Shown here one piece after another: positions 22,742 through 37,420 of a stretch of DNA of 37,420 bases. Source of the DNA: Candidatus Fermentibacterota bacterium (GTDB lineage Bacteria; Fermentibacterota; Fermentibacteria; Fermentibacterales; JCC-6); the NCBI GenBank assembly GCA_003644925.1, contig QNDS01000003.1:1-37420 (forward strand). The letters are read 5' to 3'. The notes below the pieces were generated by a model that searched no databases, was not told the DNA's origin, and was given only the letters and a program-made list of their open reading frames with translations. Position 1 is the stretch's first letter. Every line of letters starts with the position of its first letter. A program made the translations under genes and the position numbers.

Positions 22742-24094
22742 ATGCTCGAAGAACTTTACCAGAAGGTTGTAGAGAAGGACCCGGCTCAGCCTGAGTTTCA
22801 TCAGGCTGTACAGGAAGTCCTCGAGTCACTCGAGGTAGTCCTCGAGAAGCATCCGGAGTACCGCAAGGCAAGAATCCCGGAAAGAATTGTTGAACCGGAA
22901 CGTGTGATCATGTTCAGGGTTCCCTGGGTTGACGATGATGGAGATATCCATGTTAACCGTGGTTTCAGGATTGAAATGAACAGCGCCATAGGGCCATACA
23001 AGGGCGGCCTCCGTTTTCACCCCTCGGTGAACCTTGGCATCCTGAAGTTCCTTGCTTTCGAGCAGGTTTTCAAGAACGCGCTTACAACCATCCCAATGGG
23101 CGGCGGCAAAGGCGGATCTGACTTTGACCCCAAAGGCAAATCCGACCTTGAAGTCATGCGCTTCTGCCAGAGTTTCATGTCCGAACTTTTCCGTCACATC
23201 GGTCCGAGCACCGATGTACCCGCCGGTGATATCGGTGTCGGCGGAAGAGAGATCGGTTACCTCTTCGGTCAGTACAAGAAACTGAGAAACGAATGGAGCG
23301 GAGTTCTCACAGGTAAGGGTCTTCAGTACGGTGGAAGCCTCATAAGACCCGAAGCAACAGGTTACGGCGCTGTATATTTCGGTGAAGAAATGCTCAAGAC
23401 ACGCGGAGACAGTTACGATGGTAAGATATGCCTCGTTTCCGGCGCAGGAAACGTTGCGCAGTACACCACAGAGAAGATCATCGAACTCGGCGGTAAGGTA
23501 GTCACACTCTCAGATTCCGGCGGTTACATTTACGATGAAGATGGTGTTGGCACGGAGAAACTTGCCTTCGTCATGGACCTCAAGAACAACCGCAGGGGCA
23601 GGATCAGCGAATACGCTGAGAAATACCGCAGCGCTCAGTACTTCGCAATTGACCCTGAACTTGACTACAATCCGCTCTGGAACCACAAGGCAGATTGCGC
23701 CTTCCCGAGTGCCACCCAGAACGAGATCAATGCCAAGGATGCACAGAATCTAATCAACAACGGCGTCTTCCTCGTCTCCGAGGGAGCCAACATGCCGACA
23801 GTTCCAGATGGTGTTAACATCTTTATCCAGCATAAAATCCTCTACGGTCCCGGTAAAGCCGCAAACGCTGGCGGCGTATCAACCTCCGGGCTTGAAATGG
23901 CACAGAACGCCACTTTCTCAAGCTGGAGCCGTAAGGAAGTCGATACAAAGCTTCATAACATCATGATCAGCATTCACGCCCAGGCCAGAGCTGCTGCTGA
24001 AATGTACGGAGAACCGGACAACTACGTTCTCGGTGCCAATGCAGCCGGTTTCAGCAAGGTTGCGGATGCCATGATAGCTCAGGGTGTTGTGTAG
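22742..24094 (+). CDS. gdhA: Glutamate dehydrogenase
   Basis: 450 aa; RGFRIEMNSAIGPYKGGLRFHPSVNLGILKFLAFEQVFKNALTTIPMGGGKGGSDFDPKGKSD; GNVAQYTTEKIIELG. SD GGGAGG upstream. Confidence 0.96.
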   Translation: MLEELYQKVVEKDPAQPEFHQAVQEVLESLEVVLEKHPEYRKARIPERIVEPERVIMFRVPWVDDDGDIHVNRGFRIEMNSAIGPYKGGLRFHPSVNLGILKFLAFEQVFKNALTTIPMGGGKGGSDFDPKGKSDLEVMRFCQSFMSELFRHIGPSTDVPAGDIGVGGREIGYLFGQYKKLRNEWSGVLTGKGLQYGGSLIRPEATGYGAVYFGEEMLKTRGDSYDGKICLVSGAGNVAQYTTEKIIELGGKVVTLSDSGGYIYDEDGVGTEKLAFVMDLKNNRRGRISEYAEKYRSAQYFAIDPELDYNPLWNHKADCAFPSATQNEINAKDAQNLINNGVFLVSEGANMPTVPDGVNIFIQHKILYGPGKAANAGGVSTSGLEMAQNATFSSWSRKEVDTKLHNIMISIHAQARAAAEMYGEPDNYVLGANAAGFSKVADAMIAQGVV

Positions 24095-33432: not shown

Positions 33433-33498
33433 ATTCACAGGCAATTGTTAAGCAGCGATCAATATCACTTCTGCTGCAAAACGAATGGAGGTATTTCT

Positions 33499-33747
33499 AT
33501 GAAATTCCTGGTAACAATGCCGAAGCTCTCGCCAGATGAGATAGACAGATCCTGAGCAAAGGTCATTGAAGCTTCCGGTGGAAGCGGAATGGCCATGGAC
33601 CGGGCATATACGAACCGGGATGAAGGATTTGTCTGCTGCTGCTGGAACGCTCCCTCCCTCGACAGTCTTAAAGGACTTTTTGAAAAAGCCGATGCTCCCT
33701 TCGATAAGATGGAGCCGGTTACGGAGCACTTAGCAGCTGCATGGTGA
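33499..33747 (+). CDS. Candidate selenoprotein, DUF4242-like small protein with in-frame TGA at codon 19
   Basis: SD GGAGGT then MKFLVTMPKLSPDEIDRS-[TGA]-AKVIEASGGSGMAMDRAYTNRDEGFVCCCWNAPSLDSLKGLFEKADAPFDKMEPVTEHLAAAW*. TGA at 33553-33555; frame continues with family-like sequence to TGA at 33745-33747. Alternative: pseudogene. Confidence 0.6.
33561..33594 (+). promoter_or_regulatory. Bacterial SECIS-like hairpin
   Basis: GGTCATT/AATGGCC (7 bp, one G-U), internal loop GAA/GG, GCTTCC/GGAAGC (6 bp), apical loop GGT; starts 5 nt after the TGA, apical loop 21 nt after it. Confidence 0.55.
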
Positions 33748-37022: not shown

Positions 37023-37420
37023 TTATAATCCAGTGTTTTCCAGAAAGAGGAGTAATGCTGCAAGAATCAGGCAGCCGGGTATCACCACCAGCCATGGATT
37101 GACATTTAAAATCTCCGGGATGGTCTTTGTCCCGAAATCACCCTTCTGAAGAATACCGCGTCTCAGTCTTGGATAGAGACCGGCATACAGGCCGGATCCT
37201 ATCAGAATGCCCGCCACTCCTCCCAGCAGCGCATCCAGGGCGCCTGTTCCAACGGCTCCGGATACCGTCCCGGGACAGTAGCCGAGAGTCGCGAAACCGA
37301 CACCGAAGATAAGACCGCCGACCGCTGATGATCCGAGTGATCCGGGTTTAGGATGAAGTTTGACAAGACCGGCGCTTTTCAGAGCGTAAATTCCCAGCGA
37401 ACCGGTGATAACTGCTGACA
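37023..37420 (-). CDS. YeeE/YedE family permease, partial (runs off right edge)
   Basis: Open upstream of the tracked ORF: SAVITGSLGIYALKSAGLVKLHPKPGSLGSSAVGGLIFGVGFATLGYCPGTVSGAVGTGALDALLGGVAGILIGSGLYAG... Confidence 0.88.
   Translation of the reverse strand, partial: SAVITGSLGIYALKSAGLVKLHPKPGSLGSSAVGGLIFGVGFATLGYCPGTVSGAVGTGALDALLGGVAGILIGSGLYAGLYPRLRRGILQKGDFGTKTIPEILNVNPWLVVIPGCLILAALLLFLENTGL

Follow-up and report, generated by a model that had tools for sequence, protein, structure and literature searches.

Here we report that positions 33499 to 33747, forward strand, of a 37,420-nucleotide stretch of DNA from a Candidatus Fermentibacterota bacterium (the whole stretch analysed, hereafter the window) very probably encode a selenocysteine-decoded selenoprotein that belongs to a sister clade of the SCO4226-like family. 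Taking decoding and family assignment jointly, we put the probability of this reading at about 0.94. Given very strong comparative evidence, decoding of the internal UGA as selenocysteine (Sec) is itself close to certain short of experiment. We propose that the UGA would be read as Sec by tRNA-Sec and SelB under the direction of a SECIS hairpin immediately downstream, and that the product would be an 82-residue ferredoxin-like protein carrying Sec19 at the position of His23 of SCO4226.

Gene structure and conservation of the in-frame TGA

The reading frame opens at ATG 33499, six nucleotides after a Shine-Dalgarno site (GGAGGT, 33487-33492), runs through 18 codons to the TGA at 33553-33555, continues with 63 sense codons and ends at a second TGA at 33745-33747, giving 82 residues and a stop codon. 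All of these elements had been described in a first-pass annotation of the same DNA, and every coordinate was confirmed in the sequence. In a mechanical list of open reading frames the frame starts at an upstream ATG (33367). The Shine-Dalgarno site and conservation nevertheless put the start at 33499; almost every orthologue has a purine-rich site of this kind ahead of its start codon.

The gene was found in 19 distinct genomes, comprising 12 of 42 Fermentibacterota and seven Planctomycetota, the latter recovered by a PF14026 search of 395 Planctomycetota genomes. The orthologues are 34-94% identical to the window protein and all 19 have the in-frame TGA at codon 19, never a sense codon. Scanning those genome records that name an organism yielded 11 loci, including two from Planctomycetota, and codon 19 is TGA in each; these loci overlap genomes from the other searches and the total stays at 19. 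The named source genomes are all metagenome-assembled, and named relatives belong to Candidatus Aegiribacteria / Fermentibacteria. Every PF14026 member found in the 42 Fermentibacterota genomes has the TGA, and viral contigs and plasmids yielded no relatives. The gene neighbourhoods of the orthologues contain no conserved neighbours that point to a function. Candidates for a conserved operon partner were rejected: Aegiribacteria share an ABC exporter in convergent orientation, genomes of the Sabulitectum type share an upstream gene that we take, from its sequence, to encode EF-G, and the Planctomycetota loci have nothing in common.

Among five members of the same genus, dN/dS was 0.22 for codons 20-82 and 0.19 for codons 36-82, which indicates that the sequence following the TGA is under purifying selection. 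When the 19-sequence alignment was submitted to AlphaFold with Sec entered as Cys, a beta-alpha-beta-beta-alpha-beta ferredoxin-like fold was predicted with a mean pLDDT of 94.1. This fold is continuous across the TGA, whose position falls within a predicted helix comprising residues 12-26.

The downstream hairpin and the selenocysteine machinery

In bacteria the SECIS element is a hairpin that directly follows the UGA and has G in its small apical loop (PMC1088965), and the gene has a structure of this type. The hairpin (33561-33594) begins five nucleotides past the TGA and consists of a lower stem (33561-33567/33588-33594), an upper stem (33571-33576/33580-33585) and a GGU loop (33577-33579) lying 21 nucleotides from the UGA. 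Folding of the RNA from 33553 to 33600 reproduced the two-stem structure with GGU loop described in the first-pass annotation, with a stability of -18.1 kcal/mol (z = -3.7 against dinucleotide shuffles) that was reached by 0 of 200 such shuffles and by 2 of 500 synonymous, codon-preserving resamples. On both strands of the window, an equally stable fold follows 12 of 1623 TGA triplets. Open frames on both sides together with a hairpin at least as stable as -15 kcal/mol occur at two TGAs in the window, that of the selenoprotein and one at 22828 on the minus strand (-16.2 kcal/mol); the ORF of the latter is implausible and we judged it spurious. An Rfam scan of the selenoprotein locus gave no match.

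The consensus GCUUCC-NGN-GGAAGC is kept between Fermentibacterota and Planctomycetota through codon choice. In the alignment of the 19 sequences the upper stem (GCUUCC/GGAAGC) is paired in 96.5% of cells, and its nearly invariant columns thus provide little covariation. Five pairs of the lower stem have compensatory changes on both sides, a count matched by 63 of 500 shuffles, so that this control is exceeded only moderately; the covariation score of the lower stem is best in register (0.166) and falls to 0.067 or less once the partners are slid. In each of the 19 orthologues the hairpin segment exceeds the average stability of its 500 synonymous resamples. In nine cases no more than 2% of the resamples fold as stably, and several Planctomycetota hairpins are unremarkable by this measure (the weakest, at locus L070, has z = -0.13). 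The codon for Ala25 is GCT in 19/19 orthologues, with GCT making up 11-31% of Ala codons locally (11-20% at the Planctomycetota loci). Residue 27 may be Gly, Arg, Cys or Trp, and its codons have in common only the middle G, which is the loop base and is invariant in the 19 orthologues. Synonymous divergence (pS) is 0.07 inside the hairpin versus 0.25 beyond it. Taken together, stability, covariation, codon choice and pS indicate that the hairpin is selected as RNA.

The host genome contains tRNA-Sec with anticodon UCA (75 bits), selA (511 bits), a Sec-containing selD (319 bits) and selB, which is divided between two contig ends (pieces of 132 and 173 bits). The first selB piece directly follows selA, its match starting 26 nucleotides past that of selA and breaking off where the contig ends; the remainder is found at another contig end. 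The two contigs that bear these pieces at their ends (L010 and L011 on C94 and C119) are probably adjacent in the genome. The selD gene (L025, G000:C19:21849-22775, minus strand) itself encodes a selenoprotein, with its in-frame TGA in the motif CAGUAGK. As the window assembly (492 contigs, completeness 86.6%) has 7% contamination, we looked for the machinery in relatives as well. We found selA in 39 of 42 Fermentibacterota, including all 24 good-quality genomes and all 12 gene-bearing ones (two of these 12 as fragments), and in both of the gene-bearing Planctomycetota genomes examined (two of the seven). One Planctomycetota genome with the new selenoprotein (G053) has two full-length selA genes (L056 and L058). 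At the end of the window, a partial gene on the minus strand (37023-37418) resembles, judged by its sequence, transporters of the YeeE/YedE type; some YeeE/YedE transporters are selenoproteins, but in this gene the motif reads GYCPG.

Other explanations of the internal stop codon have to be weighed against Sec decoding. An internal stop in a metagenome-assembled genome might be a nonsense mutation or a sequencing error in an ordinary SCO4226-like gene, but the identical TGA is present in 19 independent genomes of two phyla and dN/dS after it is about 0.2, so that conservation already refutes this explanation and we assign it next to no probability. Since a stop codon separates the two parts, they could also represent an 18-residue leader peptide followed by a separate ORF. 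This is equally improbable, as both parts form a single predicted fold, the sequence before the TGA is conserved as protein, and frame and spacing are unchanged in the 19 genomes. Slightly less remote, though still very unlikely, is translation of the UGA as an amino acid other than Sec, or plain readthrough of the stop: Sec decoding is deduced here from comparison, but the gene uses TGA as its own terminal stop, the host has the full Sec machinery, and the orthologues conserve a SECIS-like hairpin that is suitably spaced from the UGA and has a loop G that never varies.

The first-pass annotation had proposed Sec at position 19 of a single gene running across the TGA, to be given up if the genome lacked selA, selB, selC and selD, if close orthologues had a sense codon at this position with no conserved hairpin, or if the TGA were a sequencing error. 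Both proposals are supported, the first on the strength of the conserved TGA, the hairpin and the machinery, the second on that of the one predicted fold and the constant frame and spacing. All four genes are present, with selB split as described; TGA occupies codon 19 in every orthologue found; and sequencing error is excluded because independent assemblies share the TGA.

Relation to SCO4226 and the surroundings of Sec19

Against PF14026 (SCO4226-like) the window protein scores 23.5 bits (E 6.5e-5), the curated cut-off being 28.5 bits. This cut-off is reached by five of the 12 Fermentibacterota and five of the seven Planctomycetota orthologues, and by a sixth from Planctomycetota on a fragment. 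With NF033706, the equivalog model of SCO4226 nickel-binding proteins, the window protein scores 19.5 bits, below the cut-off of 125 bits. The best PDB match of the predicted structure in Foldseek is nickel-bound SCO4226 (4oi6; E 1.8e-6, TM 0.77). When the Sec column was masked for tree calculation, the Sec members separated from the non-Sec ones with 98% ultrafast-bootstrap support. Because of the two profile scores, the structural match and the split in the tree, sequence and model indicate a sister clade of the SCO4226-like family that has the same fold, not a core member. The original designation as DUF4242/SCO4226-like is thus upheld for fold and PF14026 similarity, and core membership is replaced by a sister relationship.

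In a profile alignment Sec19 faces the His at position 30 of the SCO4226 chain. Assuming a seven-residue tag (the solved chain has 89 residues, the protein 82), this residue would be His23, a ligand of Ni-2 (PMC4186839). A second His, three residues before, would then match SCO4226 His20, which is also a nickel ligand (PMC4186839). The His in helix 1 that the first reading of the sequence had placed near this position in some homologues is supported by this alignment. Among 14 aligned non-Sec relatives the Sec column holds His, Ser, Ala, Glu, Tyr, Phe or Arg and in no case Cys (0/14); the His is found in four SCO4226-type members (L061, L063, L065 and L096). Searches for Cys homologues covered 42 Fermentibacterota, 395 Planctomycetota, and 385 relatives and diverse Bacteria, and none was present among the aligned relatives. 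An apparent Cys in L059 and L060 proved to lie at least two residues off the Sec column, and L062 has Val at the site of that Cys.

The candidate partner of Sec19 is Cys47 (TGC, 33637-33639), which is invariant in the Sec clade and present in all 14 aligned non-Sec relatives. The model places Cys47 on strand 3 and Sec19 on helix 1. In SCO4226, Tyr50 and Leu52, the counterparts of C46 and C48, face the dimer core (PMC4186839), and V45, C47 and W49 would therefore be expected on the helix side. Considering this strand alternation and the helix periodicity of I15, U19 and V22, it is plausible that Sec19 comes together with Cys47 in the space that separates helix 1 from the sheet. Sec proteins from Aegiribacteria have three consecutive cysteines, C46-C47-C48. 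In a Planctomycetota subclade (L073, L074 and L076) both Cys46 and Cys48 have been lost and new cysteines have appeared at position 9 (MPC) and at about position 31 (SPC), with Sec19, Cys47 and Trp49 retained; these changes could possibly represent relocation of a metal or redox site.

Possible function and comparison with known systems

Most probably, Sec19 and Cys47, together with nearby invariant residues, would form a soft-metal site for metal buffering or detoxification, or else a selenenylsulfide redox site. From sequence and model we give a metal site at Sec19 roughly even odds. The first-pass annotation had suggested that Sec19 could be a metal or redox ligand, and the alignment of Sec19 with a nickel ligand speaks for a metal; as for the choice between the two, we infer a metal-ligand role somewhat ahead of a purely redox one. 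A thiol/selenol protein in which Sec19 attacks a substrate and Cys47 resolves, metal binding not being the function, is a conceivable reading that falls a little short of even. It is in keeping with the usual service of Sec in redox sites (PMC13188914), with the invariance of Cys47, which strand alternation would turn toward the helices bearing Sec19, and with the C46-C47-C48 run in Aegiribacteria, but the Sec protein has no CxxU or UxxC motif, and the presence of His, not Cys, at the Sec position of relatives points away from a thiol and towards a ligand or a catalytic base. Returning to the metal-site reading, we tentatively consider that Sec may have arisen in place of a metal-binding His and not of Cys, as a soft-metal ligand in a nickel-protein fold that became fixed in two phyla and was missed by methods based on Cys homologues.

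A 2026 review tabulates 119 prokaryotic selenoprotein families, and the PF14026/SCO4226-like family is absent from them (PMC13188914). NCBIfam (June 2026) has no Sec-specific model for this family. No paper linking DUF4242 or SCO4226 to selenoproteins turned up in our search, which did not extend to supplementary tables, preprints or subscription journals, and a prior mention is possible. Most selenoproteins have Cys homologues, which is usual and not defining. The authors of deep-Sep write that selenoproteins without Cys homologues may escape their method (PMC12013277), and such an omission of Cys-less families would explain why the family stayed hidden. With the new protein, the catalogue of about 119 families would grow by one and would include selenium in a metal-binding fold that it does not yet list. 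That no Cys counterpart was found is evidence that screens for Sec/Cys pairs overlook families, and it suggests an evolutionary route from a non-Cys position to Sec.

With SECIS-directed bacterial selenoproteins such as SelD and FdhA, the new gene shares the in-frame TGA, a downstream hairpin with a small G-containing loop and the presence of selA, selB, selC and selD, but its PF14026 fold is not tabulated in the review (PMC13188914) and no Cys homologues were found here. The protein resembles SCO4226 of Streptomyces coelicolor (PF14026, NF033706; PDB 4OI3/4OI6) in its length of 82 residues, the ferredoxin-like fold, the conserved Cys on strand 3 and the aligned metal-ligand position in helix 1. 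It differs in having Sec19 in place of His23 and an identity of about 15% in the structural alignment, and most other nickel ligands of SCO4226 are not evidently kept, so that nickel itself is uncertain as its metal. The review also lists metal-binding selenoproteins, namely the putative mercuric transport protein, MbdU and CopZ-type 2Fe-2S proteins (PMC13188914). Like the new protein, these are small and probably metal-related, and some of them have a ferredoxin-like fold. They carry CU, CxxU or UxxU, whereas the new protein, with no such motif, has a lone Sec in helix 1.
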